Source: Acidobacteriota bacterium
GTDB taxonomy: Bacteria; Acidobacteriota; Terriglobia; Terriglobales; Acidobacteriaceae
Assembly (NCBI GenBank): GCA_013289795.1
Contig: JABCZH010000002.1
Location: forward strand, 1-64,000
Length of the DNA stretch: 64,000 nucleotides
Reading direction: 5' to 3'
The position numbers and the translations under genes are program-made. Numbering within the stretch: position 1 is the stretch's first letter; each line of letters begins with the position of its first letter. Under the pieces are notes generated by a model, which was not told where the DNA came from, did no database searches, and was given only the letters and a program-made list of their open reading frames with translations. Shown here one piece after another: positions 252-18,072 of this stretch.

Positions 252-312
252 TCCTGCCGCGTAGTTCCGTTTCGGCGCGCACGACTTCTCAGGGACGTAA
301 CTCGGTGCTGCA

Positions 313-444
313 CTAAACCTGATACCAGACCATCCGGGCGGTCAGAAGCTGGTTGCTGTTGTCCTGCGCGGCGATGCCGACCGGGAACGCCAGCGTAGCG
401 AATAGGGCGACTGCAGCAATGCAGGTCACGATCCTGGATTTCAT
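313..444 (-). pseudogene. Orphan signal-peptide remnant of a HAF-repeat protein
   Basis: The minus strand encodes a 43-residue peptide starting [20 protein letters not shown] and continuing through an AQDN signal-cleavage-like site to an early TAG. Its start resembles the leader of the neighbouring HAF protein at 2077-3426 (MKSRTLTW, then LAAQDKQD) and of the one at 9976 (TAQDNQD). An AGGAAG-type ribosome site precedes the ATG. It lies 29 bp downstream of the 474-2048 gene on the same strand. The repeat body is absent, so I read it as a third HAF gene in this operon reduced to its secretion leader. Whether the short peptide is still made is unknown. Confidence 0.55.
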
Positions 445-473
445 GACATACTTCCTTCTTGTGTTCTTGATTT

Positions 474-2048
474 CTAGTTACTGGACCCGAGTATCGGAAA
501 TCGAAACCGATTGTTGTGTTGCCGCAACGTGGCAGGCGGCACGCGCCTAGACAATTCGCGCGGTGTGGCCGCGACAGAGTTTGCGGCGCTCACGCCCACC
601 AGGCTGTAATCGCAGCCCCCCCCGCCGGGATGGCCTTCGTCACACGGGACCAGCAGGATCGCATGAGTGTCCCCATTTGCGAGAGTTCCGGTAACCGCGA
701 TCTCGCCGCGGTCGTTTATGTAAACTGGCTGCGCCAGCGCAAACTCATTGGTGCTAACCAAGCTGTTTAAATCGACCGCGGGACCACCGTTTTCCCACAG
801 GAAACCGCGCGTGAGATTGCCGCCACAGATCGCTGCGGTTGCGCCCACGACCTGGCCCCGCGCGTTGACCGACAAAGCGCGGCTGCACGGATCAGTCCCG
901 ATGGTCCCGAGATCCGTCATTACACCGTTTCTCCACAGGAATCCGTGGTGCACGCAAGGCAGGCCGTTGCAACCTCCCGGGTTGTACAAGTCCGCATAAC
1001 CGACCACATCGCCAGCATCATCGATCCAAAGTGCCGCCGCATTGTCTCCCCCTAAAGTGCCGAGATCCTTCAACTGCGTCTTGCTTCTCTTGTCCCACAG
1101 GAAGGCGTGAGCCGTAGCGTTTCCGGCCAGATAGGATTGGCCAACCAATTGACCTCGGTTGTTAAAGGCTTGCGGTACAGCACACGTGCCGCCGAAACTT
1201 CCGACGTCGATCATCCCAGTGCCTTTTTCCCAGAAAAAGGGGTCTTGGCTGGGAACGTTAGGTGGGCAGGAAGGCCCGTTGTCGGCGTTTGCTGTAGCAC
1301 TTGTGTAGGAGATGCCAGCGACCTCGCCCTGCTTATTCACGAATGCCGCCCACGCATCCGGCCCGCCCAGCGTGCCCAGGTCTTGCATTCCGTCTTGCTG
1401 ACTCCACAGGAATGCGCGCGATTGGGTTCCCGTCGAGATCCCGAGAATCTGAGAATACAAATAGGAATAGGGATCGGAGGTTCCGTTCGTCGCGAGACCT
1501 ACGGCTAGCCCCGCGTTATTAACAGCTTGGCCAAAACTCTGAAACCCGCCCGAAAGTGTGCCCAGATCGGTGATCTGTGTCTTGTGCCAGAGCACTCCGT
1601 GTACCAATGGGAGATCTGTTAGCGGGTCGGTTTCGCCATTCTCCGAAAAACCGGTGACTAATCCATTCCGGCTGGTCCAGGCCACGAAGCTCCAGAAACC
1701 ACCTGGAAGCGCCCCAAGATTCGTGACCGCTCCATTCTCCAATTGGAAGCCATTTGGATAGAAACAATCATCGAAGTAGCAGAGAGGATCGGCTATAGAA
1801 GTGTCCGCCGTACCGGTAATCGCTCCTGCGTCACTGATCGCTTGCGCTCCAGCCGTGCCGTTGATCTCATCAAAAACGGTGGGTACTCCACTGTTGGGGC
1901 CGCCGAACGTTCCCATGTCGATGAGCTGGTAGTGGTGGTGCGTTTTATTGCTGTGGTCTTGGTTACTCTGCGCGGCGAGTCCGAGTGGGATTGCCAACGC
2001 AACGAAAAATGCGATTGCGGTGCTGGACATCGATGACTTGGATCTCAT
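474..2048 (-). CDS. Secreted HAF-repeat protein (paralogue 1)
   Basis: The 524-residue product starts with an n-region MRSKSS and a hydrophobic stretch ending LGLAAQ, a typical Sec signal peptide. A short His-rich linker (KTHHHYQ) follows, then many degenerate repeats of about 37-45 residues built around LGTLGG, INxxGxVVG and HAFLW. These are the hallmarks of the extracellular HAF repeat family (TIGR02913). The C-terminus carries a paired-cysteine motif, PCDEGHPG followed by CDY, also present in the two paralogues. The start is supported by AAGGAG 7 bp upstream of the ATG. It lies 28 bp behind the HAF gene at 2077-3426 and is probably co-transcribed with it. The molecular role of HAF proteins is not established; a beta-propeller-like secreted or surface protein is a guess. 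Confidence 0.85.
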   Translation of the reverse strand: MRSKSSMSSTAIAFFVALAIPLGLAAQSNQDHSNKTHHHYQLIDMGTFGGPNSGVPTVFDEINGTAGAQAISDAGAITGTADTSIADPLCYFDDCFYPNGFQLENGAVTNLGALPGGFWSFVAWTSRNGLVTGFSENGETDPLTDLPLVHGVLWHKTQITDLGTLSGGFQSFGQAVNNAGLAVGLATNGTSDPYSYLYSQILGISTGTQSRAFLWSQQDGMQDLGTLGGPDAWAAFVNKQGEVAGISYTSATANADNGPSCPPNVPSQDPFFWEKGTGMIDVGSFGGTCAVPQAFNNRGQLVGQSYLAGNATAHAFLWDKRSKTQLKDLGTLGGDNAAALWIDDAGDVVGYADLYNPGGCNGLPCVHHGFLWRNGVMTDLGTIGTDPCSRALSVNARGQVVGATAAICGGNLTRGFLWENGGPAVDLNSLVSTNEFALAQPVYINDRGEIAVTGTLANGDTHAILLVPCDEGHPGGGGCDYSLVGVSAANSVAATPRELSRRVPPATLRQHNNRFRFPILGSSN

Positions 2049-2076
2049 GGAGCGTCTCCTTTTCTTTTTCTAGCGG

Positions 2077-3426
2077 CTAATTTCTTGGGTCAAATGCGGG
2101 ACTAGGGAACCGATACCAATTCATGCGGCGCATGATTGATTGAGGTGTCATCCGCCCGCTTGGGTGGAGAACCTCGGGACTGGTTTGGGAGGCAGCGCTC
2201 AGGTCCACCAGGCCGTAGTCGCAGCTTTCGATACCGGGATGATTCTCGTCGCACGGGGTCAGCAGATAACCCCGAAATTCACCGTTTATCGTGTTGAGTG
2301 CAGGGCCCACGATTTGCCCGCGATCATTGTTTCCGAGCGCCTCCCACAGAAACCACGCGGAGCCAGGAGGAACAAGCGTGTTGAGGTCGGTTATCGCCCC
2401 GTCCTCCCAGACGACGGCGCGAGCGTTCCCGCTGGCGTCGAATGATGCGCCGACTGCTTGGCCGCTGTTGTTAATGGTTTCGGCCCAGCTCACAAAATCT
2501 CCGGGAAGCGTGCCAAGGTCGGTCATCATGCCCTCGCTCCACAGAAAGGCGTGAAATGCCATGTTCCCGGGCAAGCCGGATTGGCCAACCACTTGACCTC
2601 GCTTGTTGATGCCGAATGCAAGATTCCACTCCGTCCCGCCCAGGTCGCCCAAGTCGGTCGCGGTCCAGTTTTGTCCGTCGCGTTGCCAGAGCACAGCATG
2701 AAGGCTAGTAAGTGGAATGTCTAAGTCACAATTACCCGTCGAGCCCACAGCTTGGCCGAGATCGTTAATCGCGTCGGCGAACCCGTCCAGGTCGCCGGAA
2801 ATTGTAGGAAGCTGTTGAATCTGGCCTCTTTCCCATATGACCGGCTCGGATTCAGGCTCGGAGTCTGAGCAGGTTGGGTCTTCGGTCGTGATCTGGGAGA
2901 TCCCAGGCACTTGCCCCCGATTATTCACCTTCCAGGCTATCGCGTTATTGCCGCCGAGGGTAGACAGTTCGTCCATGACCCCGCCCCGCCAAATAAATGG
3001 GCGACAAGTATACGGGTCGCTGACAAACATAAAGAGGCTACAAAACTGCGCTGCGTTCGAGTCCGGGGTAGAGGTATAGGAAGCACCTGCGACCTCGCCC
3101 ATATCGTTGGGCTGTGGTGACGCCTCTGGTGCAACACTGTCGGGCCCGCCAAGTGTGCCGAGATCAATAATGGCCCCGTTCCGCCAGAGCGAAGCGTGTC
3201 GGACCTGGTCGCCCGACAGGGTAGATGAGCCTGCCGCCTCGCCTCGGTTGTTGATGCCAACGACATCGGTGGTCGTCCCGCCCAGCGTGCCGAGTATTTG
3301 GAGAGAGTAGCGAGTTTGCTTGTGATGGTTGTGGTCCTGCTTGTCCTGCGCGGCAAGTCCAGTCGGCAGCGCCAGCGCGGCGAACAACAGCATCGAGGTA
3401 ACCCAAGTCAACGTTCTGGATTTCAT
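2077..3426 (-). CDS. Secreted HAF-repeat protein (paralogue 2), first gene of its operon
   Basis: The product is about 449 residues: signal peptide (MKSRTLTWVTSMLLFAALAL, cleavage near LAAQ), a His-rich linker (DHNHHKQ), tandem HAF repeats (for example HAFLWSEGMMTDLGTLPG) and the C-terminal motif PCDENHPG followed by CDYGLVD. I chose the ATG at 3426 because AGGAGG lies 5-6 bp upstream; a GTG two codons earlier would also be in frame. It is divergent from the winged-helix/kinase gene at 3656. The 230 bp between them holds three 11-bp-spaced direct repeats that could be the regulator's operator. The family assignment is firm but the function is unknown. Confidence 0.87.
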   Translation of the reverse strand: MKSRTLTWVTSMLLFAALALPTGLAAQDKQDHNHHKQTRYSLQILGTLGGTTTDVVGINNRGEAAGSSTLSGDQVRHASLWRNGAIIDLGTLGGPDSVAPEASPQPNDMGEVAGASYTSTPDSNAAQFCSLFMFVSDPYTCRPFIWRGGVMDELSTLGGNNAIAWKVNNRGQVPGISQITTEDPTCSDSEPESEPVIWERGQIQQLPTISGDLDGFADAINDLGQAVGSTGNCDLDIPLTSLHAVLWQRDGQNWTATDLGDLGGTEWNLAFGINKRGQVVGQSGLPGNMAFHAFLWSEGMMTDLGTLPGDFVSWAETINNSGQAVGASFDASGNARAVVWEDGAITDLNTLVPPGSAWFLWEALGNNDRGQIVGPALNTINGEFRGYLLTPCDENHPGIESCDYGLVDLSAASQTSPEVLHPSGRMTPQSIMRRMNWYRFPSPAFDPRN

Positions 3427-3489
3427 GTGCACCTCCTCGGTGCGTACGACACTGTCCGCCTACGCCTGATTTTGTGCAATGCAAAGCAC

Positions 3490-3517
3490 GTCACCGCTGT
3501 ATCACATTTGGATCACA
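3490..3517. promoter_or_regulatory. Putative winged-helix operator A: three direct hexamers at 11 bp period
   Basis: The sequence reads GTCACC (3490-3495), five bases, ATCACA (3501-3506), five bases, ATCACA (3512-3517). The period is exactly 11 bp, as in PhoB/OmpR-type tandem sites. It sits between the divergent HAF gene and the gene encoding a winged-helix/kinase protein. The equivalent gap at 9718-9975 holds the same pattern. A shared CACTTACGC also occurs near both sites (3542-3550 and 9816-9824). The repeats are seen directly; binding by the neighbouring regulator is inferred. Confidence 0.5.
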
Positions 3518-3655
3518 GCCCGTAAGCTCATCAGTGACTTGCACTTACGCGGCGATTTGCGGTGTCGTGCGGCAAGGGATAAGCCGTCCGTCCAGCGCGG
3601 AGGCCGGCTCTGCGGGATGCGGCGGTGTTAGAATCCCAACACTCTGGAGTGCTTT

Positions 3656-6600
3656 ATGCTTGGAATCGACCGCTCCCAAGACCTTGTACGCTTCGAGGGT
3701 TTCGAGCTTGACCTGCGGACAGGCGAACTCGGTAAAGAGGATGGCACGACGGTTCGCCTTTCAGAGCAACCTCTGCGAATTCTGGTTGCGCTGCTAGAAC
3801 GTCCGGGCGAGCTGGTGCTGAGAGAAGACTTGCGTAAGCGGCTGTGGCCGAACGACACCATCGTGGAATTCGAGCACAGCATCAGCGCCGCCATGAACCG
3901 CCTGCGGCAAGCGCTGGGCGACTCGGCCGAGAATCCCCGTTTCGTCGAAACCCTTGCGCGACGCGGCTACCGCTGGAAGACTCCGGTGGAATGGGTGAAG
4001 GTTGCTCTTGATGTCACTCAACCGCTAACTGAATCCGCAGGCCAGAACCTGATCGGCAAGAGGGTGACGCACTATCGAGTGTTAGAAGTAATCGGCGGCG
4101 GCGGCATGGGCGTGGTGTATAAGGCAGAAGATCTCAAGCTGAGCCGCCGGGTCGCGCTGAAGTTCCTGCCCGAAGAGCTAGGCAAAGATGCGAAGGCCCT
4201 GGAAAGGTTCGAGCGCGAAGCGCGAGCCGCTTCCGCACTAGATCATCCCAGCATCTGCACTATCCACGAATTTGGCGACCACGATGGCCAACCCTTTATG
4301 GTGATGCCTCTGCTGGAGGGACAAACCCTGCGGGACCGGATTGAAACCCAAGCAGCCGCATTTGCGACCGAGGAATTATTGAACCTCGCGATTCAGGTTG
4401 CCGATGGGCTGGAAGCAGCCCACGAAAAAGGAATCATCCATCGCGACATAAAGCCGGCGAATATTTTTATTACTAGTCGCGGCCAGGCCAAGATTCTGGA
4501 CTTCGGTTTGGCGAAACTGGCATCGGGTGCTGATCCGGAAGCCCCGCGATTCCAGGAAATGCCGACCGGGCCCGTCACTCACCTCAGCCTCACTCGAACT
4601 GGCGTTGCGCTGGGTACAGCCGCTTACATGTCGCCCGAACAAGTGCGAGGCGAGAAGTTGGACGCGCGCACGGACCTGTTTTCGTTTGGACTTGTGCTCT
4701 ACGAAATGGCGACGGGACAGCAGGCATTCAGCGGCCAGACGGCGCCGGTGCTCCACGATGCAATCCTGAACCGCTTACCCGTCCCAGCAAGGAAGTTGAA
4801 CCCGCGATTGCCATTCGAGCTGGAAGAAATCATCGATAAGGCGCTGCAGAAAGACCGCGAGCAGCGTTTTCAGGCTGCCGCGGAGATGCGGGCTGATTTA
4901 GAGGGATTGAAACGGGGTACGACGCCGAGGCGCTGGGGCATTTCCCGGAAGGCCATGGCTGCGATCGTGCTTGCTCTACTCACGGTGATCGGTGTAACCC
5001 TGTGGCTAACCAATCGTCATTCCCCAGCCCCAAGTCTTCCCGGGTTAAAGCAACGCCAGCTCACCGACAACTCCGATGACAACCCAATCCTAAGCGGCGC
5101 GATTGCACCCGACGGCAGGTATCTGGCTTACGCCGACCTGCAAGGAATGCATGTCAAAGTGATCGAGACGGGCGAGATGCGGACCCTTCCTCAGCCGCCT
5201 GAGATCGAAGGAAAGCACGTAGAGTGGAACCTCGTCCCGACTTGGCTTCGCGATGGTTCGGGGTTCATTGCCAATGCCAATTCGGGGAACCTTTTTCCTG
5301 ACCTGGGCATCTGGATGTTTCCGGCGCCGGGTGGACCGCCCCACAAGCTGCGCGACGATGCCGAGGCCTACTCCGTTTCTCGGGACGGCTCGTTGATTGT
5401 TTTTGAGACGAACCCAAGCGGCGGGTGGAGCTATCGAGAATTGTGGGTGATGAGGAGTGACGGTACACAAGCGCGGAAGGTCTATGAAGGCGACGACAAG
5501 AGCGGCTTTGAGGGGGGGGAATGGTCACCGGATGGCCAACGCTTGTCCTACGAATCTGTACAGCGAGTCGGGGGAGGTCTGGTGACACGCGACCTGGAGG
5601 GCGGACCAGTTCAGATGGTCCTACCTAGCGGCGTGCAGGATCATGTCTGGGCCCCCGACGGGAGGATCATTTATTCATTGGACGAGCCCGGCCTCTGGGC
5701 CAACAGTTGCAACTATTGGGCAGTACCGATTAACACCTCGACCGGCAAGCCCAGCGAAGCCTCCAGGCGTTTGACCAATTGGGCTGGGTTTTGCATGGAC
5801 AGTTCAAGCTCCACAGGGGACGGCAAGCGGCTTGCCTTTCGCAAATGGTCGTGGCAGAGCAGGGTATATGTTGCCGACATCGAGGCGAGAGGGAAGCATA
5901 TGAGTCCGCCGAGGCGCCTAACGTTGAACGAGGGGCGAACTTATCCGGCCGCCTGGACACCCGACAGCAGGTCCGTGATCTTAGAATCCTACCGCGACGG
6001 CCATTGGCGAATTTTGAGGCAATCATTGGAGGACAGTACAGCCCAAACCCTTGTGTCAGGGACGAATGGGGCGGAGGCGGAAAACGAGGATATGGTAGGT
6101 GGCGCGACAATGAGTCCAGATGGCACATGGCTGTTGTACCTGAGACAACAGAGGGCTAAGGAGCATTATTCGGAGGCCGCGGTTGGTGATTGGGCCGCGC
6201 TTGGCAAGGGATCCGCGTCACGTCAACTCATCCGGGTTCCAATCAAGGGCGGACCGTCGGAATTGGTGCTGACAGCGAATATTTTCGGAAAACCGCGTTG
6301 CGCCCGCGCCCCGGCCACATTGTGCATGATTGCTGAGCGGACCTTGGATCTTCGGCAACTCGTCTTTACGGCCATCGACGCGCCGCACGGCCGTGGTAGT
6401 GAACTAGCACGATGGAATACTGATGCGAGCCCTGCTGCCAGTTACGGCTGGGACCTTTCCCCAGATGGCATGCTCATCGCCGTTCTCAAATACCCGGAAG
6501 CACGGATCCACCTCCTTCATTTGAACGGGCAGGCGACGCAGGAAGTCGTCGTGCGGGGTTGGGATAACTTGCGCAGTGTTAATTGGGCCGCAGACGGAAA

Positions 6601-6835
6601 GGGAATGCTTATCACGAGCGCCACTCAGGGAGGTTCGGCTCTGCTTTACGTGGACGTGACGGGCAACGCCCGTGTCCTGTGGGAGCAGAAAGGAAGCTTT
6701 GCCTGGAATGTACCATTTAATGATCTGTTAAACGAGAGATCGGCTCCAACCGCCGTGCCTTCCCCCGACGGCCGTCATCTGGCGATTTATGATTGGAAGC
6801 TGAGCGCCAACATGTGGATGATGGAGAACTTCTGA
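3656..6835 (+). CDS. Membrane regulator: winged helix + Ser/Thr kinase + TM + TolB-like PD40 repeats
   Basis: The 1059-residue protein has four parts. Residues about 10-112 form an OmpR/PhoB-type winged helix (similar to CadC). Residues about 138-420 form a Hanks-type Ser/Thr kinase with a GGGGMG loop, catalytic Lys169 (VALK), HRD 262-264, DFG 282-284 and an SPE motif. A single membrane helix spans about 433-452. The rest is TolB/WD40-like PD40 repeats (motifs such as APDGRYLAY and SPDGQRLSY), presumably outside the membrane. The ATG has GGAG 7 bp upstream. Key kinase residues are intact, so activity is likely. Placing a DNA-binding domain and a kinase on one membrane protein suggests a one-component sensor that both binds DNA and phosphorylates. 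It is divergent from the HAF operon, which is its probable target. The ectodomain closely resembles that of the kinase-less gene at 7468-9717. Confidence 0.9.
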
Positions 6836-7467
6836 CGGTGCAGCTCAGTCTGTGTCCGCCCACATGCAGTGCAGCTTTCCCGTTGCTGGCGCTGTCTCGC
6901 TTGGCTGCCTCCCCTGCTATTTGTGAGATGGCTTGTAGTCTGGCCATGGATAGCTGTCAATCAAAACATAAGGAGGACTCCCGCCACACTGGCCATGCAG
7001 CAGGAGTCCCCTCGAAGGCAAACCGGAAGTAATCCGGCGGGACGAAAGCGGCTTCCGCGTAGTGGCTGAGAAGGTCAGCCGGAATTGAGAATGCAAAATC
7101 GCGAATGTTTTGGCCGTGACGTCAGCTATTTGGCAACTTGAGTGGCCGCTGTTTGAACTGAGAGCCTCAACTATCGGCCGGCTACAGCCGACTTCGCTAC
7201 GCCTACATTGGAAGGCTGGTCTGATGAGGCGGCAGGCATGGGTTGACCCAAAATCCGAGCAGAGATCGCATCTCTGTCCCTGTAGAGCAGGACTACGATC
7301 TGGATGAGCAGGATCGCGGCGAGAGCGAAAAAGCTCCAAAGGTAGGGCTGCGCTACCGCAGTCCAGGTACGCGTCACTGGCTTACACTGGAGTCTTTGGC
7401 TTGGGCTCCCCGGCACGTCCAGTTTGGCTTGAAGATGTAACTTCTAGCTGTGCTGAACCCTATACCT
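6836..7467. other. 632 bp gap between two convergent regulator genes; no firm gene
   Basis: The gap between the convergent kinase and winged-helix genes holds no recognisable RNA gene or clear terminator. Several short frames are open on both strands. Only the minus-strand frame with a membrane helix (7171-7377) looks at all protein-like. The stretch may be the decayed axis of the mirror-symmetric locus. Confidence 0.4.
7171..7377 (-). CDS. Possible small single-pass membrane protein
   Basis: A frame of about 68 codons from a GTG encodes one clear hydrophobic helix (LWSFFALAAILLIQIVVLLY) followed by a charged RDRD segment and a polar tail. An upstream GTG at 7416 would extend it by 13 residues. 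No convincing ribosome-binding site is visible and I recognise no family. It lies just upstream, on the opposite strand, of nothing that helps assign a role. The helix composition is the only support, so this could be chance or a remnant. Confidence 0.22.
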   Translation of the reverse strand: MTRTWTAVAQPYLWSFFALAAILLIQIVVLLYRDRDAISARILGQPMPAASSDQPSNVGVAKSAVAGR

Positions 7468-9717
7468 TCAAAAGTTCTCCACCATCCACATATTCGAACT
7501 CAGCTGCCAGTCATAAATCGCAAGATGCCGGCCGTCCGGCGAGGGCACGGCCCAGGGCGCCCGGGCGAACCACGGCTCTATGCTGCCCTTGCGCTCCCAC
7601 AAGACTTTGGCATTACCTTGCATATCCACCCGCAGGAGCGCCGAACCCTGTGGCGTGGCACCCGAAACAAATAGTGCTTTCCCATCGGCTGCCCAGTCCA
7701 CGCTCTGCAGGCTGTTCCACCCCTTGACGACAATCTCGCGCGGAGCCTGGCCGTCCAACGGAATCACACGAATCTTTCCTCCTGCCGAGGGCCCATTTTG
7801 TGCTCCAAACAACTGGAGGAAAGCTATACGAGTGCCATCTGGAGAAAGGTCCCAAACGTAGTCTCGGCCTGTGGGCTCGATATCAATGTGGGCAATCTCG
7901 CGACCGCGACCCCTCAACGGGTCGAAAGCGGTGAAAGTAATTTGCTTGCCGTCTGCACTTCGCTCTGCGATTGCACACAAACTCGCAGGCGCCTGGGCGC
8001 AGCCCGGCGCAATTCGCGAGTGCGCGCTGTCGTAAAAGCTTGCGGTCAACACCTGCTCGGCGCTGCCGCCGTTGATTGGGATTCTCATCAGTTGATATGG
8101 TGCGGAGGAACCACCGGTGCTGGAGTAGCCCGCCGGGTAGAGAATCCATGCGCCATCGGCACTCACGCGGACTTGTGGATTCAGCAGGTTTACGGTTACG
8201 GTCACGAGTGGCTCGGTCGTCTCTCGACCTAAAGACTGCTTGAGTATCTGCCACTGCCCGTCACGATAGGACTCGAAAACAACCGCATCGCTATCTCGTG
8301 TCCAGCCAGCCGGAAAATTTCGCCCCTCATTCGTGGTTAGCTTGCGGAGTGAGGTAAGCCGAGTCCCGGTGTGATCGAGATCAGCGACAAAGATGTTGGC
8401 TTGCCACAGCCATCTGCGAAACACGAGACGCTTGCTATCCGCGCTTGGACTGGGGTTGGCCATGCAGAAACCAGCCCAGTTGGTAAGGCGGTTCGGTTTT
8501 TCAGCAGGTTTACCGCTTCCAGCGTCGATGAGCATCGCCCACAGGTTACAACTCAGGGCTGCCGGGCCTGGCTCGTCCAGTGACCACACTATGCGTCCAT
8601 CCGGTAGCCAGGACCAGTCCTCGAGCGTGATCGCGTCAGGCAATGCGGTTACCTCAGCGCCGCCCACAAGGTCACGGCTCTCAATGGCCATCTGACCCCT
8701 GTCACGCCCCTCGTGCGCGATAAGGTAGGCTAGGCGTTGACCGTCGGGCGACCATTCAGCACCTAAGAAAAAGCTGCTCTCGTCCACGTCGTAGAGCTTG
8801 TATGCGCCCTCCCCATCTGCCCTCATCACCCACAGCTCGCGATAACCAAACCTGCCCCAATTTGTCGCGAAGGCAACCCGGGAGCCGTCTCGTGAAACCG
8901 ACTCTGCCTCCGAGTTATCTCGCAGTTTTCGCGGTGCTCCACCTACCACGGAGACGATCCAAATGCTCGTGCCCCGGCCAGCGGTATTCGCATTGGCGAT
9001 GAACCTGGTACCGTCGTGAACCCAGGTTGGGACAATCGCCCAGTCCACTCGCGCTCCCTTGACCTCCTCCGGTTGGGGAACGTCCGCTGTCTCCCCAGTT
9101 TCGATGAGCTTGATGTGAATGCCCTTCAGATCAGCATAGGCCAGGTATCTGCCGTCCGGCGAAATCGCCCCGCTCATCACCGGGTTATCAGTGGGATTAG
9201 CCGTGAGCTGGCGCTGCTTCAACTCCGGCAGTCCAGACATGGAGGGGGGGTGGCGCTGTATCCACCACAAGACAGCGACCGCAACCAGCGCAGCCAAAGT
9301 GCCAGCGACTACACGCCACGATAAGGGGAAAACCTGCTTTCCGGCGAGACTCTCCGAGGCGTCAGCGCTTTGGGCACCATTGCGCTCCACTGGCGCGATG
9401 AAGCGATAGCCCTGGCGAGGCAGCGTTTCAATAAAGCGTGGCTGGTCGGCGGAATCGTCCAAAACTTCGCGCAGTCGGTTGACCGCCTTATTCAAACCGC
9501 GGTCGAAATCTACGAAGGTGTCGTCGGACCACAGCCTTTTCCGCAATTCCTCGCGATTCACCAGATCACCCGGGCGTTCCAGCAATGCTGACAGAATTTG
9601 AAAGGGTTGTTCCTGAAGAATCAGCTTGTGGCCGTTAGTCCGCAGCTCTCGCGTGCGTAGATCGAGGTCGTACTCTTTAAAGCGGATGTGCGATTCAGAT
9701 TGGGCGGACATTCCCAT
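7468..9717 (-). CDS. Membrane regulator: winged helix + TM + TolB-like PD40 repeats (no kinase)
   Basis: The product from ATG 9717 is about 749 residues: winged helix about 10-110 (motifs LILQEQPFQIL and VNRLREVL), one membrane helix about 135-153, then PD40 repeats ([32 protein letters not shown]). GGGAGA lies 7 bp upstream of this ATG; the open frame extends 55 codons further but that part looks non-coding. It resembles CadC/ToxR-type one-component membrane regulators. Its ectodomain aligns along its length with that of the 3656-6835 protein (both begin LKQRQLT and share PTW, RDGS and LTNWAGFCM). The kinase is absent, so the two differ by one whole module. It is divergent from the HAF gene at 9976. 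Confidence 0.88.
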   Translation of the reverse strand: MGMSAQSESHIRFKEYDLDLRTRELRTNGHKLILQEQPFQILSALLERPGDLVNREELRKRLWSDDTFVDFDRGLNKAVNRLREVLDDSADQPRFIETLPRQGYRFIAPVERNGAQSADASESLAGKQVFPLSWRVVAGTLAALVAVAVLWWIQRHPPSMSGLPELKQRQLTANPTDNPVMSGAISPDGRYLAYADLKGIHIKLIETGETADVPQPEEVKGARVDWAIVPTWVHDGTRFIANANTAGRGTSIWIVSVVGGAPRKLRDNSEAESVSRDGSRVAFATNWGRFGYRELWVMRADGEGAYKLYDVDESSFFLGAEWSPDGQRLAYLIAHEGRDRGQMAIESRDLVGGAEVTALPDAITLEDWSWLPDGRIVWSLDEPGPAALSCNLWAMLIDAGSGKPAEKPNRLTNWAGFCMANPSPSADSKRLVFRRWLWQANIFVADLDHTGTRLTSLRKLTTNEGRNFPAGWTRDSDAVVFESYRDGQWQILKQSLGRETTEPLVTVTVNLLNPQVRVSADGAWILYPAGYSSTGGSSAPYQLMRIPINGGSAEQVLTASFYDSAHSRIAPGCAQAPASLCAIAERSADGKQITFTAFDPLRGRGREIAHIDIEPTGRDYVWDLSPDGTRIAFLQLFGAQNGPSAGGKIRVIPLDGQAPREIVVKGWNSLQSVDWAADGKALFVSGATPQGSALLRVDMQGNAKVLWERKGSIEPWFARAPWAVPSPDGRHLAIYDWQLSSNMWMVENF

Positions 9718-9827
9718 CGCGGCTTTCTCCCGCGCGACTCGGGGCAGTTTAGCACCGCTCTGGAGGCTCGTGATCCGGTAAATCGCGAGATGTTTCCAAC
9801 CCATTACAAAAAAGCCACTTACGCCAT

Positions 9828-9855
9828 GCCACACACGCGCCACATTCGGGTCACA
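9828..9855. promoter_or_regulatory. Putative winged-helix operator B: three direct hexamers at 11 bp period
   Basis: The sequence reads GCCACA (9828-9833), five bases, GCCACA (9839-9844), five bases, GTCACA (9850-9855), again at exactly 11 bp period. It lies between the divergent winged-helix gene (start 9717) and HAF gene (start 9976). The last two units align with operator A as CACATTyGGrTCACA. Tandem 11 bp repeats suit a PhoB-like winged helix; binding itself is inferred. Confidence 0.5.
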
Positions 9856-9975
9856 TCGGCGGCATTGACGCTCAAGCGGCACCGGGCGAGAGTGACGGCG
9901 CGAGGCGCGATGCTCCCAGTTCCGGCGACTGTGACGTGAGCAAACGCCGAGACAAAACTCTAAGGAGAAGTGTGT

Positions 9976-11511
9976 ATGAAATCTCCAGAATCGGCGTTCG
10001 CCGCAATCGTCTTGTTAGCCGCCCTTGCTCCGCCCCAGCTCACGGCACAGGACAATCAAGATCACCGCCATAAGCATCATCATTACCAAGTGGTCGACTT
10101 AGGCGCCCTTGGGGGCAACAACAGCTTCACTCCGTTTCCAGCTGCCAGAACGTTGAACCAGGTTGGGATCGCTGTTGCTGAGGCCGACACTTCGACTCCC
10201 GATCCCTACGCTCCCAATTGCTTCCAGACACTGTTTGGTGAATGCCTCGTCAATCACACTCTGCGGTGGAAAAACGCGACCACTGACTTAGGCGCACTTG
10301 CAGGCGTCAACAGCAGCTTCCCTGTATGGATCAACGATGGTGGACTGGTCTCCGGCTTTTCGGAGAACGGTCTCATCGATCCCCTGACTGGTTTTCCCGA
10401 GGTCGAGGGTGCCTTGTGGAAGCAGGGCAAGATTATCCCCTTGGGAACTCTGGGGGGAAACGCCAGCTATGGAAACGCCATCAACAACCGTGGCCAAGTC
10501 GCGGGCTTTGCCCTGAATACCATCCTTGATCCCTTCGCGGGCACTCTAGCCCTGGGCCCTTCCTTCCCCGTCGCCACAGAATCGCACGCGTTTTTGTGGG
10601 ACACGAAAAACGGGATGCGGGACTTGGGCACATTGGGCAGCGGCCCCGACAGCGAGGCTTTCTACGTCAACGAAAGCGGACAAGTAGTTGGGATCTCTTA
10701 CATAAACTCGACCGCAAACACAGACAACGGCCCTGTCTGCACACCCAATGTCCCGACCGAGGATCCGTTTCTTTGGGAGAACGGCGTGATGACGGACCTT
10801 GGGTCTCTCGGCGGCAATTGCGGTTTTCCGTTTGCTCTTAACAACCGAGGCGAGGTCGTAGGCAATGCGACGCTGGCCGGAAACGCGAGCAACAACGTTC
10901 CTTTCTTGTGGACGAAAGGAACCGGAATGCAGCGTCTTCCCTCGGTAGGGGGAACCTTTGGAGAAGCCTACTCGATCAACGACGCCGGACAGATCGCCGG
11001 CTGGGCCAGTCCCCCGGGCGATACAGCCGCCCACGCAGTTCTCTGGGAGGAGGGAAAAGCGAAGGACCTCGGAGTCCTTGGCAACGCTAGCTGCAACATC
11101 GGACTGTGGATTAACTCACGGGAGCAGGTTGTGGGTTTTGCAGGGGTGGACAGTTGTAACACGAGCAATGAAAGCGCATTCCTGTCGGAAGACGGTGGCC
11201 CGCTTGTTGATCTTAATACCCTGGTTTCGCCAAACTCCGGCGTGTACCTGGCTGAAGCGAAGACTATTAATGATCGCGGAGAGATTGTTGGTGATGGATT
11301 TCTCCCCAACGGCGACGTGCACGCTATCTTGTTGATCCCATGCGACGAGCAGCATCCCGGCGTCGAAGGCTGCGACTACAGCCTAGTAGATGCGCCCGTC
11401 GCGGTACGTGCTGCAACTCGTAATGCAAACAGCCAAGTGCCACAACAATCAGTTTTGCCCCGGATGAGGCGCTCTCACTTTCCCGGACGCGAGTTGCGCC
11501 CAATGAATTAG
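9976..11511 (+). CDS. Secreted HAF-repeat protein (paralogue 3)
   Basis: The 511-residue product from ATG 9976 has AAGGAG 8 bp upstream. It starts with a signal peptide (MKSPESAFAAIVLLAALAPP, cleavage near LTAQ) and a strongly His-rich linker (DHRHKHHHYQ). HAF repeats follow (HAFLWDTKNGMRDLGTLG, INNRGQVAG, INDAGQIAGW), and the C-terminus ends with PCDEQHPG and CDYSLVD. It is a full paralogue of the two HAF proteins at 474-3426, in mirrored orientation. The VCBS gene starts 25 bp downstream, so the two are probably one transcript. The winged-helix gene upstream is divergent. The biochemical function is unknown. Confidence 0.88.
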   Translation: MKSPESAFAAIVLLAALAPPQLTAQDNQDHRHKHHHYQVVDLGALGGNNSFTPFPAARTLNQVGIAVAEADTSTPDPYAPNCFQTLFGECLVNHTLRWKNATTDLGALAGVNSSFPVWINDGGLVSGFSENGLIDPLTGFPEVEGALWKQGKIIPLGTLGGNASYGNAINNRGQVAGFALNTILDPFAGTLALGPSFPVATESHAFLWDTKNGMRDLGTLGSGPDSEAFYVNESGQVVGISYINSTANTDNGPVCTPNVPTEDPFLWENGVMTDLGSLGGNCGFPFALNNRGEVVGNATLAGNASNNVPFLWTKGTGMQRLPSVGGTFGEAYSINDAGQIAGWASPPGDTAAHAVLWEEGKAKDLGVLGNASCNIGLWINSREQVVGFAGVDSCNTSNESAFLSEDGGPLVDLNTLVSPNSGVYLAEAKTINDRGEIVGDGFLPNGDVHAILLIPCDEQHPGVEGCDYSLVDAPVAVRAATRNANSQVPQQSVLPRMRRSHFPGRELRPMN

Positions 11512-11536
11512 CCAGATTGACGGAGAGGAGCACGAC

Positions 11537-14083
11537 ATGAAACCCAGATCCTCGATGAACAGGACCGTGGTGGTTTTATTCGCTTCAGTCTTCGCCGGCG
11601 CAGTGACTCTGGCCCAGACCAATCCAGTTCCTCTGATCAATCAGCCGCTGGTCCCCGATGCCGTCGCCCCTGGAGCCCAAGGATTCACTCTTACCGTCAA
11701 TGGCACGGGCTTCGTATCGGGTTCAGAGGTAAGTTGGAACGGTAATGCACGGGCGACAGCCTTCGTTAGCAGTTCGCAGTTGACCGCGACCATTCCGGCA
11801 ACTGACCTCGCCAAGGCGAGTACGGCCTCGGTGACTGTGTTCAATCCCAGCCCGGGCGGGGGTACGTCGAATCAGGCCTACTTTGAAGTGATAACACCCC
11901 GGTCTGCCATATCACTGAACCGATCCGATTATGGCGTGGGTGCAGGTCCTCTACCGGTCGCCACCGGTGATTTCAACGGAGATGGGACGCCGGACCTGGC
12001 TGTGGGGAATACCACCAGTAACACGGTGAGCGTGTTACTGGGCAACGGTGATGGGACCTTTCAAGCGCACGTGGACTACAGCGAGGGACTTCAACCCTGG
12101 TACGTGGCGGTTGGAGATTTCAACGGCGACGGCAAGCTCGACTTGGCTGTAGCCAACATTCTCAGCAATACGGTCGGCGTCTTGCTGGGGAACGGCGACG
12201 GTACGTTCAGCCCATCCGTGAGCTCCGAGGTCGGCTCGTTTCCTACCGGGGTGGCGGTCGGCGATTTCAACGGTGATGGCAAGTTGGATCTTGCTATCAC
12301 CAACTCAAGGGACAACTCAGTAAGTGTGCTTTTGGGCAAGGGCGATGGCACCTTCCAGGGGCGCGTAGACTACGCCTGCGGGCCGGATCCCTCTTCGATA
12401 GCAGTAGGCGATTTTAATGAAGATGGCAGGTTGGATCTGGTGACCACCAACGCAACCGGCAACACAGTAAGCGTGCTTTTGGGCAACGGTGATGGCACCT
12501 TCCAGCCACATCAGGACTATGCGACTGGAGATAGTCCAGAATCCGTGGCCGTGGGTGACCTGAACGGCGACGCCAAATTGGATCTGGCAGTGGCAAACAT
12601 CAACAGCGGCACGGTCAGCGTGTTGCTAGGGAACGGCGACGGTACTTTTCAGACCCACATAGATTATTCGACAGGAACGGGGCAGATTTATCCCCGGTCG
12701 GTGGCACTTACAGATCTCAACGGCGACGGTAACCTGGATATGGCCGTGGTCAATCAAGCCAACAACACGGTGAGCGTACTTTTCGGGAACGGCGATGGTA
12801 CGTTTCACGCACACGTCGATTACGGGGTAGGGACCGCACCTGGCTCGGTGGCGGCGGGCGACTTTAATAACGACGGAGAGTCAGACTTAGCTGTTGTTAA
12901 CGTCAGTAACGACACAGTATCCGTTCTGCTCCAAGGTACGACCTTTCAACTCTCGTCCACAAGCTTGAGCTTCGGATCTCAGGTGCTCGGAACCCAGAGT
13001 CCTGTTCAGAAGGTGACACTGACCAATACTGGTTTTCTTCCTTTGATTATTAACAGCATCGCAATCACGGGCCCGGACGGAAAAGATTTTCTGGAACAAA
13101 ATAACTGCGGCTCAAGCCTCGCGGCGGGTGCTAGCTGTACCATCGGCGTGGCATTCGCGCCGACCCAAGTGGGACCTCGAAGCGCTGCGGTCGCAATCAG
13201 CGACAACGGCGAGGGTCCGCAGTCGGTCAGCTTGAGTGGCACGGGAGTGACCTCAGGAGCGAATGCCACATTGTCAACCAACAAGCTGGTTTTCGCTACT
13301 CAGCTAGTGGGCACGACCAGCCCATCGCAGCCCGTCACTCTGACCAACTGGGGCACACAGACGCTCCGCATCACCGGCGGCAGTATCAGCGGTGATTTCG
13401 GACAGATGGACAATTGCAGCGCGAACCTCGCGCCCGGAGCAAGCTGCACCATCAATGTGACCTTCACTCCTAAACAGCGCGGAACTCGAAACGGTACTCT
13501 GTCGATTAAAGACAACGCCCCGAATAGTCCCCAAACCGTGAATTTGACGGGTGTGGGCACGGTGGTGAAGCTGGATCCAGGCAGCCTGGATTTTGCAAGT
13601 GTCATCGTCGGGCAATCCAGTCAGCCACAGGCCACGACGCTGACCAACGTGGGTAATGTGACGCTGACGATCACCGGCATCGAGATCACGGGTTCGGATC
13701 CTAACGACTTTTCGAAGATGGATACCTGCGATGGGAGTGTAGGCGCAGGACAGTCCTGCACCATTTCGGTGACCTTCACACCAACGCAACAGGGCCCTCG
13801 CAGCGCCGATGTCTCGGTAGGCGACGATGGGGGCGGCAGCCCACAGCAGGTGAGTTTGACAGGAACAGGGATAGTTTGTTCACGCGGGCACAATTGCGGG
13901 CTGTGCGAGGTGGACATGAACGGAAACCTGACCGGTTCATGTGTTTCCCACCGTTTTCAGTTTTGCTATATCCAGCCTTCCTCCGATTGTCCCCGGGGAC
14001 AGAGGGCGATAAAAGAGACCCTGGTGTCATGCGGCCCCTTTCTTCCAGACCGAGTCGACGAGGCGAGAGCCTGCTCGTTCTGA
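11537..14083 (+). CDS. Secreted VCBS/FG-GAP-repeat protein with ASH domains and Cys-rich tail
   Basis: The 848-residue product begins with a signal peptide (cleavage near LAQT) and an IPT/TIG-like Ig domain (about 30-118). Seven VCBS/FG-GAP units follow (about 130-465), each with a calcium-binding type DFNGDGxxDLAV motif and an LLGNGDGTF motif. Three ASH/choice-of-anchor D domains come next (about 467-775), each with an ASCTI or QSCTI cysteine strand. A 70-residue tail with eight cysteines ends the protein. GGAG precedes the ATG. It is likely an exported, calcium-stabilised surface or adhesion protein. It is co-oriented 25 bp behind the HAF gene. The cysteine tail, with no membrane or sorting signal, is unusual and may be a disulphide-stabilised module. 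Confidence 0.87.
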
Positions 14084-14199
14084 AAATGTTCGTGTGCCGG
14101 TCTTCGTGCGGCCGGGTGCCAGGCCGTCCACAGTCGTACGCTTGCCACGGTTGCAATCGTCGAGTTGAGGTCGCATGCGCTGGCTGGGAAGGCTTAATT

Positions 14200-14316
14200 T
14201 CGACAGGAACGGGGCAGATTTATGCCCTGTCGGTAGCACTTACAGATTTCAACGGCGACGGCAATCTGGATATGGCCGTCGTCAATCAAAACAACAACAC
14301 CGTGACTGTACTGTCG
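14200..14316 (+). pseudogene. Detached copy of one VCBS repeat unit
   Basis: These roughly 117 bp closely match 12668-12784 in the VCBS gene upstream. They encode the same [16 protein letters not shown] unit but have no start of their own, and the frame ends shortly after at 14343. This looks like a partial duplication of the gene's sixth repeat or the relic of a longer or second VCBS gene. The rest of 14084-14489 holds nothing else recognisable. Confidence 0.6.
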
Positions 14317-14489
14317 GCCCATTTGGATCGATGGTCCCTGTAACAGGTCGGGCCGTTCTCAATGAGTGCTATCGCCTGATTACAACAGCTGTCCAGATTA
14401 AGAGCGAAGAGCTACAATACGGCGCGTCACCTGAAACGAGTAAAGATCATTGTCGTGATCGGTAGCACGATGAAAGGCAGGATCGCTTA

Positions 14490-15173
14490 ATGCTCTTCCG
14501 AATGACGAATATCGTCGTGATCGTGGTTCTGCTTGCCGGTTTCAGCTGGTCACAATCGGAGTCAACGAAACCGACAACGTACACATTGGAAACCGTCAAA
14601 GTGTCGAACGCGATCTACCCCTTACAGGCGCGGCAGCAGAAGATACAGGGGCGAGTAGTGGCAATGATGCTGGTATCGGAAACTGGCGAAGTAGAAAACG
14701 TCCAAGTCTTTAAAGCGGATGCAATACTCTCTCAAGCTGTGGAGGAAACAATTAGGCATTGGGAGTTCAAGCCAGTCACAAAAAATGGTACAGCCGTACC
14801 TGTGATTGCGAAAGTAACTTTCAACTTTGTTCTCGGCAACGAAGACCAGCAGGGCGTCACTCCCGACGTGGCCCCTGCGACTGATTTCCCGCAGCACGTT
14901 AGGGTTTCGGAAACTGTGATGCAGGGACTTGTAGTGAGCAAAGTCAACCCTGAATATCCGGCTGCGGCTAAGGCCAACAATGTTCACGGTGTAGTAACAC
15001 TTGCGATGGTCATTCGTAAGGACGGAACCGTCACGGACGTGCAAGTCGTATCTGGTCCCGCCGAACTTACTGCGGCAGCGGTCGATGCCGCAGGCCAGTG
15101 GCGATACCGGCCCTATCAACTTCTGGGACGCCCCGTTGAGATACAGACCACAGCACAATTCAATTTTCGTTAA
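14490..15173 (+). CDS. Secreted protein with two tandem TonB-C domains
   Basis: The 227-residue product has an N-terminal hydrophobic leader (IVVIVVLLAGFSWSQ) that could be a signal peptide or membrane anchor. Two TonB C-terminal-like domains follow. The first covers about 30-115 (YPLQARQQKIQGRVVAMMLV, VEETIRHWEFKP) and the second about 142-227 (YPAAAKANNVHGVVTLAMVI, VDAAGQWRYRPY). Known TonB proteins usually have one such domain after a proline-rich periplasm-spanning segment, which is missing here. It is therefore more likely a periplasmic TonB-C-like binding protein than an energy transducer. It stands alone, followed by a convergent gene. Confidence 0.75.
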   Translation: MLFRMTNIVVIVVLLAGFSWSQSESTKPTTYTLETVKVSNAIYPLQARQQKIQGRVVAMMLVSETGEVENVQVFKADAILSQAVEETIRHWEFKPVTKNGTAVPVIAKVTFNFVLGNEDQQGVTPDVAPATDFPQHVRVSETVMQGLVVSKVNPEYPAAAKANNVHGVVTLAMVIRKDGTVTDVQVVSGPAELTAAAVDAAGQWRYRPYQLLGRPVEIQTTAQFNFR

Positions 15174-15291
15174 GCACAGTTGGCGTCAAATCTCCACTAC
15201 ACCCCTTGCCGGGGGCTGGCGGGGTCAATGAGTGTAATCGCCTGATAGCGTCAGTTGACAATTCTTGGGTCAAGGCATGGTCGCCACGCTG

Positions 15292-17865
15292 CTATTGCAG
15301 CTTCGCGTACTCTGCCTTGGCTTCCTTCAGGATGGGGATGTCAGGGTCGGCGTCTTTCCAGAGGGTGAGAAACTCTTTGTAGGCTGCGATCGCACGAGTG
15401 CGGGCGGCATCAGCATCCTCCCCCCGCGAGGTTCGAGACTCCAAGGCATTGGCGCGGGCCACACCCAGATGAGCCAACACTCCCGTCCAGCAGTTCCCGA
15501 CGAAGCCGCTGTGGTCGAGAATTTTCTGAAACTCACCGGATGCAGCGTTGCCTTGCCCAGCTGCCAAGTATGCCGCTCCGCGTACATACGTATGATAGAG
15601 GCAGCTAGTGTTGCCGTAGGCAACCAGCCCTAACTCGATTGGTAAGGCAGCTCGCAGAGTATTCAAGGCGGAAGTGGGGTTCTTTCGATACAGCGCCAAT
15701 TGCGCTTGAATCGCTGGCAGCCAAAGCAACTGCATCTGCGTGTCTAGCGGGAAGCGTTTCCCTAAGTCTTGAACCAACAACCCGGCCCGTACGGTATCGC
15801 CCGCCATGGCATAGGCAAGTGCGGCTTCGCTCTCGACGCCTCCACTCGCAGGCACCAACTTCAATGCCTCTGCCGCTGTCTGACGGGCTTCTATGGCATT
15901 GCCGTATGCCGCTTCTTGCAGAGCAGCACTCGTCAGATAGATCGCCCCATTTTCCTTGTTGTCAACTCGTATGGCAGAGTCTACGGCCCGCTTGGTCAAG
16001 TCTCGTGCTTTGCCCCGATGACCAACATACGCCTCTGTGTCAGACGCGAGCGAAAGTCCATAGTTCTCGTAGTCAGGCTTGCCCGCAAACCACTGTAGCT
16101 GTTCCGCCATCGCGTCGGAATCCCTCCCGTGAAAAGCAAGAAGGTAAAGAAGAACGTGCAGTATGTAACCATCCAGTTTTCGCGCCTGCGCCTCGTGGAT
16201 AATCTGCCGCGCCTCATCGAAACGCTGCAAGGAAAGAGAGAATGCGGCGAGGTTTTCGTTAAATACTAAACTGTCCGGGTCAAGGATCCTGCCCTGCCTT
16301 GTGATCTCGACGGCTTTTTCGTACTGCCCCAGTTGGGCCAATGCGGCGCCCAAATCTCCGTAGGCACCAAGTGCGTGCGGATAGATCCCAATCTCTTCCT
16401 GAAATGTCTGGGCTGATTTATCCAGTTCTCCGCTTACATACTCATAGTAGTCGGCGGTCACCATCAGTTTTTCCGGCTCGCTGATATGTTCCCGCAACTG
16501 GAATGCTTTGGTCAGGTACTCGCTGGCCCTTCCTAGCTCGCCGAGGCTAAGGTAGTAGCCACCCACCGCCCTGTAGGCCATGGCAAAATTCGGATCAAGC
16601 TTGATCGCGCGTAGATTGTGAAATAAGGAGTCTGGGCCTTCATCACCAACGCTGACCTCTTTCAGGGCTTCGAGCGAAGACGTGGTGGCCTCCGCCAGTG
16701 GTACATCAAACTTCTGCACCGTCGCCAGCGATTCACCCAACTCAGTACGCAGCTTGGTTGCCGCCCCGCCCAGTACGTCCAGCACCTTCTCCTTAGACGC
16801 CGCGGTCACCTGTTCTTGTGCCAGCGTGTCTCCGCTTTGGCAATTCACCGCCTTTAATCCCAGCACATATTCGCTGCCTAGGCTGCCAATCGATCCCACC
16901 ACATAAGCTTTGCTGCCCGCCCGCTGGCAGAGATCGCGGACTACGTCGGGTGTGAGTTTCGTGTTGGCTGGACGAGTCATCAACTGCAACGTCTTCGCGA
17001 CCTTGGTGTCAGAGAGCACATTCAGGAAAGGCGATTGGCGCAGGGAGACGTTGAGACCCGTTTTCAGCGTGTCGTCGAATATCGCATCGCCCGTGCGGTT
17101 GGCAAAATCCGCGAGAACGATGGTGTCTTTATCGGTGAGGGCGTGTGCCCGGCGAGTGTAGAAGACGCTAGCGACTGCCAACGCAGCCATGATTCCCACG
17201 GCGATCACGCCCAACGAGACCTTCTTACGCTTTTTCCGCGAAACTTCGGCCGCTGCAGCTTTCCGCGCCGCCTGCAGCTTCTGCGGTAGCTCCCGATTCC
17301 CCGCCTCCTCCGTGTACAGGTTATAGAGATGGACGCGGACTCCATGCTTGACCTCGGCTTCTCCCAAGTCATGCAGCATGACCTTCCAGTTACTCATCTG
17401 CCCGAGCACATCCGCGACTGACTTTGAAACCAGGATGTGCCCGGCATCTCCGCAATCCATCACACGTTGCGCGATATTGATGCCGCCGCCCGCGACATTC
17501 CGGTTGGCATTGATGTCCTCGACGCGCTGCACTGGCCCGGTATGAATTCCCATGCGCAGCTTCAACTCTGGCTGCTCCCGCAAAGCATGACTGATCTCCA
17601 GAGCACAGCGAGCCGGAGCTTCGGCATCCCCAAAGAACACCAAGGCCATGCCGTCGCCGGTAGGCAGGCGGAGCAATTGCCGGCGCTTCTGCGCTCGGCC
17701 GAACTCCGCTGCATTGCGAACGATTTGTTGAAGCTGTTCTATCAGGCGGGTCTGCTCGTCCATCGGCAACTGGGAATATGCCACGATGTCCATGAATAGG
17801 ACGTGGGCGATCTCCAGCGTCCGAACTGAAGCTGAAATCGAAGATGAGTCCGAAGGCATCGCCAT
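15292..17865 (-). CDS. Class III cyclase-homology domain + TM + TPR protein
   Basis: Residues about 18-185 of the 857 resemble a class III nucleotide cyclase, with metal-binding Asp26 (FMDIV) and Asp71 (TGDGM), and transition-state Asn130 and Arg134 (GINIAQR). The usual base-selecting Lys and Asp appear replaced by Leu67 and Asn123 by my manual alignment, so the substrate, or activity at all, is uncertain. A membrane helix spans about 216-236. The next part (TIVLADFANRTGD) is a FlgO/TolB-like segment often found in acidobacterial sensor proteins, followed by TPR-like helices (ALAQLGQYEKAVEI and similar) to the C-terminus. Probably a membrane signalling protein. It converges with the TonB-C gene at 14490. 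Confidence 0.78.
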   Translation of the reverse strand: MAMPSDSSSISASVRTLEIAHVLFMDIVAYSQLPMDEQTRLIEQLQQIVRNAAEFGRAQKRRQLLRLPTGDGMALVFFGDAEAPARCALEISHALREQPELKLRMGIHTGPVQRVEDINANRNVAGGGINIAQRVMDCGDAGHILVSKSVADVLGQMSNWKVMLHDLGEAEVKHGVRVHLYNLYTEEAGNRELPQKLQAARKAAAAEVSRKKRKKVSLGVIAVGIMAALAVASVFYTRRAHALTDKDTIVLADFANRTGDAIFDDTLKTGLNVSLRQSPFLNVLSDTKVAKTLQLMTRPANTKLTPDVVRDLCQRAGSKAYVVGSIGSLGSEYVLGLKAVNCQSGDTLAQEQVTAASKEKVLDVLGGAATKLRTELGESLATVQKFDVPLAEATTSSLEALKEVSVGDEGPDSLFHNLRAIKLDPNFAMAYRAVGGYYLSLGELGRASEYLTKAFQLREHISEPEKLMVTADYYEYVSGELDKSAQTFQEEIGIYPHALGAYGDLGAALAQLGQYEKAVEITRQGRILDPDSLVFNENLAAFSLSLQRFDEARQIIHEAQARKLDGYILHVLLYLLAFHGRDSDAMAEQLQWFAGKPDYENYGLSLASDTEAYVGHRGKARDLTKRAVDSAIRVDNKENGAIYLTSAALQEAAYGNAIEARQTAAEALKLVPASGGVESEAALAYAMAGDTVRAGLLVQDLGKRFPLDTQMQLLWLPAIQAQLALYRKNPTSALNTLRAALPIELGLVAYGNTSCLYHTYVRGAAYLAAGQGNAASGEFQKILDHSGFVGNCWTGVLAHLGVARANALESRTSRGEDADAARTRAIAAYKEFLTLWKDADPDIPILKEAKAEYAKLQ

Positions 17866-18072
17866 ACCTTGCTGCCGATAATGCGCGAATCTTACGTCGG
17901 TGAAAAGGGCAAGTCAATGAAAGCCGTGGAGTTGGCGGTGTCCTCAAAGGATTGCTGTTGTAACATCGCCATTACACTCATTGACCCGTCAAGCAGCCTG
18001 CTCGACATCCAATTCCCTGACCCCATCCCTTGCTTGATGGCGAACAGATGGCGAATATGCTAAATTGCATGC

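Follow-up and report, generated by a model that had tools for sequence, protein, structure and literature searches.

Candidate triple 11-bp operators between membrane-anchored wHTH regulators and divergent HAF-repeat genes in an acidobacterial family

Known operators and the two sites of the window

The pho boxes of PhoB recur with an 11-bp period, take up one wHTH per repeat and have a GTCA-like core, and in the PhoB operator a box replaces the -35 hexamer. The CRP/FNR site is an inverted repeat, TGTGA-N6-TCACA. In the window, the whole 64-kb stretch of DNA analysed here, two sites (A and B) each lie between a regulator gene and a divergent gene for a HAF-repeat protein. They resemble a PhoB-type operator in their 11-bp direct repeats, but differ from it in having three boxes, in keeping their -35-like elements (TTGACG and TTGCAC) 10 bp after the last core rather than losing them to a box, and in that Pfam finds no receiver domain in the window regulators. 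PMC10294691 describes direct repeats and a strict box-to-core-promoter spacing for PhoB, and the window sites share both traits with its pho boxes.

The regulators themselves are closest to the ToxR/CadC-like transmembrane regulators (TTRs). Both window regulators have an OmpR-type N-terminal wHTH and one hydrophobic helix per chain, and ToxR and CadC are solved relatives of these wHTHs. Unlike TTRs, they carry a beta-propeller sensor and, in one case, also a Ser/Thr kinase between wHTH and helix. CadC has two AT-rich sites arranged head to head (PMC5430869), whereas the candidate operator here is a tandem triple with an 11-bp step. Acidobacteriae are named among the groups with above-average numbers of TTRs in PMC10269533. 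As to the genes opposite the regulators, HAF1, HAF2 and HAF3 are ordinary members of the HAF-repeat family (TIGR02913), and the divergent regulator and the candidate operator are what this locus adds. The literature searched, which lay largely outside subscription journals, contained no description of this operator for such membrane regulators in the text available.

Site B (9828-9855, plus strand; GCCACACACGCGCCACATTCGGGTCACA) reads GCCACA-N5-GCCACA-N5-GTCACA and lies in the divergent region of HAF3 and regulator 2. Its boxes start at 9828 (GCCACA), 9839 (GCCACA) and 9850 (GTCACA), in steps of exactly 11 bp, so the triple repeat that had been predicted at this place is present. The pattern GYCACA-N5-GYCACA-N5-GYCACA has one match in the window with up to 2 mismatches, against 0.02 expected from shuffling, and a single mismatch-free match in the 4.67-Mb genome. 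Site A (3490-3517, minus strand) also has three 11-bp boxes, reading TGTGAT-N5-TGTGAT-N5-GGTGAC toward HAF2; its plus-strand letters (GTCACC at 3490, ATCACA at 3501 and ATCACA at 3512) fit the pattern more loosely than site B. Scored for three YCACA boxes, the two sites head the 64 kb (15/15 and 14/15), followed by two stretches at 13/15. Three perfect matches to RYCAC repeated three times at 11 bp occur in the 4.67-Mb genome, namely site A, site B and one within a mechanical ORF. Among 23 wHTH matches in this genome, only the two window genes have a YCACA triple above 12/15; none was found upstream of the other 21 wHTH domains examined.

A regulon search of the genome with at most 1 mismatch gave 16 matches, compared with 9 for the reversed pattern, and no clear target besides sites A and B. 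At two further loci of the genome (L149 and L146, around 1501-1527), GTCAC/GTCAT triples with an 11-bp step differ from the pattern by one mismatch. The first stands about 130 bp ahead of a frame with a signal-peptide-like start and the second between frames of at least 120 aa; both are possibly PhoB-type sites. A search for CRP/FNR sites returned 15 window matches within 2 mismatches to the inverted repeat, none of them at site A or B. The sole mismatch-free match is a perfect CRP/FNR-like palindrome, TGTGACGAATGTCACA, at 27619-27634.

Genes, promoters and flanking letters

Regulator 2 (7468-9717, minus strand; start ATG 9717 or 9711) comprises a wHTH (Trans_reg_C), one hydrophobic helix and a TolB/PD40-like beta-propeller. 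Opposite it stands HAF3 (9976-11511, plus strand; start ATG 9976), a HAF-repeat protein gene and the likely target of site B. The 258 bp from ATG 9717 to ATG 9976 contain site B. The mechanical ORF list begins regulator 2 at GTG 9882, which would place site B inside the gene. We take the site to be intergenic because the wHTH domain starts at residue 85 of that ORF and because, read from ATG 9717, the protein and regulator 1 align starting at residue 6 in each. An FG-GAP/choice-of-anchor D gene (11537-14083, plus strand) follows 25 bp behind HAF3 and is probably on one transcript with it.

In the other half of the region, regulator 1 (3656-6835, plus strand) comprises a wHTH, a Ser/Thr kinase, a hydrophobic helix and a beta-propeller paralogous to that of regulator 2. 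HAF2 (2077-3426, minus strand) is the likely target of site A, and HAF1 (474-2048) lies behind it on the same strand. The regulator 1 kinase is thus placed between the DNA-binding domain and a probable extracytoplasmic sensor, and relatives with this build occur in several genomes.

Profile searches support these assignments. Both regulators pass the PF00486 (Trans_reg_C) cut-off of 26.2, with 58.2 bits for regulator 2 and 50.9 bits for regulator 1, and all three HAF proteins pass the TIGR02913 cut-off of 22.65 (HAF3 98.8, HAF2 113.6 and HAF1 115.7 bits). Hydropathy over 19 residues peaks at 2.08 (residue 136) in regulator 2 and at 2.47 (residue 433) in regulator 1; by Pfam and hydropathy, each therefore joins a wHTH and a predicted TM helix in one chain that lacks a receiver domain. 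Compared with solved structures, the wHTH gave 42 matches, the best being the DNA-binding domain of the cholera toxin transcriptional activator (ToxR), with OmpR, RstA, CadC and PhoB lower among them. Given this ranking, the regulator is probably a one-component activator anchored in the membrane.

The two regulators are 51% identical in the propeller and 56% in the wHTH, and HAF3 and HAF1 are 48-49% identical. From these identities the two halves of the region look like a duplication, and sites A and B therefore need not be independent inventions. This makes it doubtful that they are two independently positioned copies, as the original prediction had held.

The promoters presumed for the HAF genes follow the boxes at equal distances. 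At site B, the last core begins 15 bp before the first T of a -35-like TTGACG (9865-9870, plus strand), and a -10-like GAGAGT (9888-9893, plus strand) follows the TTGACG after 17 bp. At site A, a -35-like TTGCAC (3474-3479, minus strand) stands 10 bp after the last core and is followed, again after 17 bp, by a -10-like GACAGT (3451-3456, minus strand). Both sites also have a CTTACG 10 bp ahead of their first core. The stretch CTTACGCCAT (9818-9827, plus strand) directly precedes the first box of site B, with the same spacing as its site A counterpart, CTTACGGGCT (3517-3526, minus strand). The shared sequence CACTTACGC occurs twice in the window, at 3542 and 9816 (0.29 expected; two copies reached in 3 of 100 shuffles). 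The first copy lies 24 bp past the site A boxes, the second 3 bp ahead of the site B boxes. The equivalent placement that had been claimed for the repeats together with this sequence thus holds for the boxes, which are equally far from the -35-like TTG of the HAF promoter, and not for CACTTACGC. Across loci of the family, a TTAnC-like element lies 44 bp before the -35 (T at -44 in 55/75 loci, C at -40 in 51/75), displaced by 2 bp in the window sites. Between site A and regulator 1, an inverted repeat GTAAG...CTTAC surrounds TCAGTGA (3521-3547) and is kept in the orthologous locus L074.

A recurrent layout in the family

Homologues of HAF3 (E <= 1e-70) were found in 14 of the 398 genomes in the family, the own genome included, with 22 matches. 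A wHTH gene faces away on the other side in 11 of the 20 non-window HAF loci, which together with the two of the window makes 13 HAF/wHTH pairs; in L073 another gene stands between regulator and HAF. Longer stretches uphold the arrangement in several genomes, including for kinase-bearing relatives of regulator 1. A profile search of the genome contigs with the HAF alignment gave 2 loci.

An 11-bp triple scoring at least 11 next to a TTGN -35-like element is present in 11 of the 13 pairs, and in 9 of 11 when the window's two are left aside. Among the 13, the same search in 200 shuffles of the regions averaged 0.15 and never exceeded 2, and wrong periods yielded none (9, 10 and 12) or one (13). 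The phases were picked after inspection of the sequences, and the shuffle control made the same choice. The best triple lies at -15/-16 from the TTG in L020, L021, L066, L073, L074 and L075, and at another phase, -4 to -6, in L061, L065, L068, L070 (boxes at -26, -15 and -4) and L078. The layout is absent from L067 and L076. Earlier, the repeats had been predicted to be functional and to reflect a common kind of DNA recognition, with their loss from relatives that preserve the gene pair as the point to check; the excess over shuffles and the retention in all pairs except these two support this well. L066 has a perfect CTAAC triple (15/15), although the wHTH frame opposite its HAF gene is split over two frames. 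L076 has an A/T-rich 11-bp triple (15/15) about 91 bp before the TTG, near where a wHTH gene of another class begins.

The periodicity can also be seen when the letters themselves are ignored. Self-similarity over three consecutive steps, scanned at periods 7-17, singled out period 11 in the 13 HAF/wHTH regions, the window's two included (combined z 8.3, next 1.4; z > 2 in 7/13). It was again the top period in 49 other wHTH upstream regions, with z 5.5 against 3.0 for period 15 and 12/49 regions above the same mark. The period-11 signal was weak (2.3 vs 2.2 at period 15) at the remaining 21 wHTH matches in this genome; by manual sorting, 13 of them are response regulators or a fragment.

A tied three-box model was trained on 68 upstream regions of wHTH genes, those of the window being held out, and recovered RTGACNT at 11-bp steps. 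Applied to the 64-kb window, it ranked site A first (17.2 bits) and site B second (16.3), the next stretch reaching 13.5. When the closest orthologue, L074, was removed as well, an 8-wide box model of 67 regions placed site A at rank 1 and site B at rank 3; its log-likelihood was 98.8 at period 11, whereas seven other periods gave 52.7-72.3 and three shuffled sets 31.9-37.6. With a GTGAC-type box model, just 6 of 60 fresh regions scored at least 12 (other periods, at most 1/60), 4 of these 6 with TTG at +10; by per-locus shuffles, 12 of the 60 reached p <= 0.05 where 3 were expected. The exact YCACA triple was rejected as a family-wide signature: 21 of 200 genomes had a match, and of 26 loci only L040 and those of the window had a wHTH in the flanks. 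The fixed pattern fails because box letters vary between regulators.

What recurs in a set of 130 upstream regions is a module of three 11-bp boxes, 10 bp, a -35-like TTG, 17 bp and a weak -10 of the divergent gene, with cores at -37/-26/-15 relative to the -35. Of the 22 non-window loci whose box score is at least 12, all of which were also used in fitting the box model, 11 have TTG[ACG] at exactly +10 from the last core on the side of the divergent gene; any other offset is seen in at most 3/22, and at most 2/22 have it toward the regulator.

A promoter-first search was aimed against this circularity. Promoters were predicted with a -35/-10 matrix alone (built from 11 of 12 aligned non-window loci, L139 with TTGT as its -35 being omitted), and the upstream repeat was then tested without the box model. 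A promoter score of at least 8 was reached in 77 of the 130 regions. In the 67 such loci outside the matrix and the window, core self-similarity was 6.84/15 at phase -15 and period 11, with 6.58 and 6.79 at the neighbouring phases and maxima of 3.8-4.4 at periods 9, 10, 12 and 13. Of 60 regions added afterwards, 45 scored at least 7, and their mean self-similarity was 6.56 (maxima at other periods 3.6-4.4).

A clear triple (at least 7) precedes 47 of the 77 predicted promoters, window and matrix loci included, vs 4.7% at wrong periods; the module is thus not universal. Once the window and matrix loci are set aside, the triple is found in 13/24 loci of a set made non-redundant at less than 70% wHTH identity (3.1% at other periods) and in 21/42 at less than 80% (4.4%). 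As a control, 63 of 490 window tiles were promoter-like and 5 of these had a triple, sites A and B among them. In the own genome, promoter score and triple are both high in only three of 10 such wHTH genes, the two of the window and L017. The last has the full layout in other letters (TCCGG/TTCAG/TCCGG, then TTGACC, 17 bp and CACAGT). The compared loci represent a single family, and many of them are related. Because the same layout, in other letters, recurs beside many related regulators, we conclude that the repeats are a real, readable control element.

Divergent genes of such regulators may often code for exported proteins. For 23 regulators we looked at the longest ATG frame facing away, and judged by eye that it has a signal-peptide-like start in at least nine (L083, L088, L092, L101, L102, L104, L106, L112 and L135). 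The frames in L085, L123 and L139 look spurious, and L018 and L022 have no ATG frame facing away.

Which regulator reads which boxes

Among 47 loci, the boxes are of the types GTGAC or GTCAC, TTGAA (with the recognition helix DHSLGTAINKIRE), TCAAG (with the helix DNSLNTSINKLRE) and TCCGG (with helices of the GLNTxVKKLR type). The more alike two recognition helices are, the more alike their boxes tend to be (rho 0.25, p 0.001), a trend not seen for the rest of the domain (0.08, p 0.149); among pairs less than 60% identical in the rest of the domain, this specificity is gone (helix 0.27 vs rest 0.30). These values fit a scheme in which each regulator would read the boxes beside its own gene.

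Read toward the target, the cores are GTGAT, GTGAT and GTGAC (GTGAY) at site A and GCCAC, GCCAC and GTCAC (GYCAC) at site B. GTGAC-like cores occur in the nearest relatives of regulator 1 (L074, L083 and L084, with 89%, 74% and 70% wHTH identity), less clearly in L073 (67%); in L074 the three boxes of site A are conserved and the spacers differ. GTCAC-like cores occur in the near relatives of regulator 2, L070 (72%), L112 (71%) and L101 (69%). There are exceptions. L075 (69%) and L088 (67%) are regulator-1-like and have GTCAC cores, L085 (69% to regulator 1) has no clear triple, and L109 (71% to regulator 2) has TTTAC/TCTCC/TCCAC. Since GTSAC is nearly palindromic, a flipped box and a changed central base look the same.

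The original prediction envisaged that the halves might be cross-wired, each regulator reading both sites so that the two form one circuit. The regulators are paralogous, and the GT(S)AC-type core, the phase and the promoter geometry are alike at sites A and B. The outer GT..AC, common to both, leaves room for cross-binding; as GT(S)AC is the commonest core among the 47 loci, its sharing is weak support. Against this stands the central base of the core (GTGAY in site A, GYCAC in site B), which for the most part matches that of the nearest relatives of the adjacent regulator, the exceptions above notwithstanding. We therefore consider a single cross-wired circuit unlikely, and the evidence leans toward two sites of a shared type that would be read separately.

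We are fairly confident that site B acts as operator for a promoter that depends on an activator, that the adjacent ToxR/CadC-like regulator binds there and activates HAF3, and that site A serves HAF2-HAF1 likewise; most likely, the three repeats form a docking strip from which a membrane-anchored regulator switches on the adjacent gene for an exported protein. Regulator 2 would have its PhoB/OmpR-type wHTH in the cytoplasm, a single TM helix and a probably extracytoplasmic beta-propeller. Its wHTHs would occupy the three 11-bp boxes, one per box, on one face of the DNA. As the boxes lie just upstream of the TTGA of the -35, the bound regulator could help RNA polymerase to start HAF3 from a poor -10, and the FG-GAP gene behind HAF3 would probably be switched on with it. 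Site A and the kinase-bearing paralogous regulator would exert equivalent control over HAF2-HAF1, and the same module, its box letters varying with the regulator, would be common to many such regulators of the family. Binding by the adjacent regulator, activation over repression and a signal sensed by the propeller are our interpretation of the sequence; for the probable activating role, it is the geometry, with its weak -10, that speaks.

Regulators of this kind are often autoregulated, and the boxes could instead serve mainly for negative autoregulation of the regulator gene, with HAF3 not activated. Site B does sit upstream of the regulator gene, 110 bp from its start, in an intergenic region that the two genes share. 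What is conserved, however, is the distance from the boxes to the divergent gene's -35-like element, and no equally clear element or conserved promoter was found on the regulator side in the 25 of 57 regions long enough to look, which makes autoregulation as the main role improbable. Still less probable is that the triple belongs to an unrelated global regulator such as CRP/FNR or PhoB. The letters would allow it, as GTCA resembles the core of a pho box and GTGA/TCAC resembles CRP half-sites, but the CRP-like inverted repeats found with up to 2 mismatches all lie away from the sites, the YCACA triple is missing upstream of the 21 other wHTH domains examined in the genome, and across loci the box letters change with the regulator at an unchanged phase. 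Short boxes in a GC-rich region might be thought to repeat by chance, or to belong to an RNA structure or a leader; the held-out ranking and the fixed phase speak so clearly against such readings that we give them almost no weight. Four stretches fold no better than shuffles (z -1.40 to -0.03), and Rfam at the gathering threshold gave no match in 1-18000.

Activation of the divergent gene from the three boxes remains the reading we prefer, and it has consequences beyond the window. We see an even chance that, throughout the acidobacterial family, membrane-anchored wHTH regulators have their specificity written beside their own gene, as three 11-bp operator boxes that keep a fixed phase ahead of the -35 of a divergent gene, which often codes for an exported protein, and whose letters track the recognition helix. 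If so, the many regulator/operator pairs would let the recognition code of OmpR-type winged helices be tabulated from natural examples, together with the targets of kinase- and propeller-fused sensors. If the module is right, the operator, promoter and target of many membrane one-component regulators would be readable from sequence, and the link from helix to DNA letter could be checked on natural pairs. The HAF-repeat proteins, for their part, gain a predicted control circuit.
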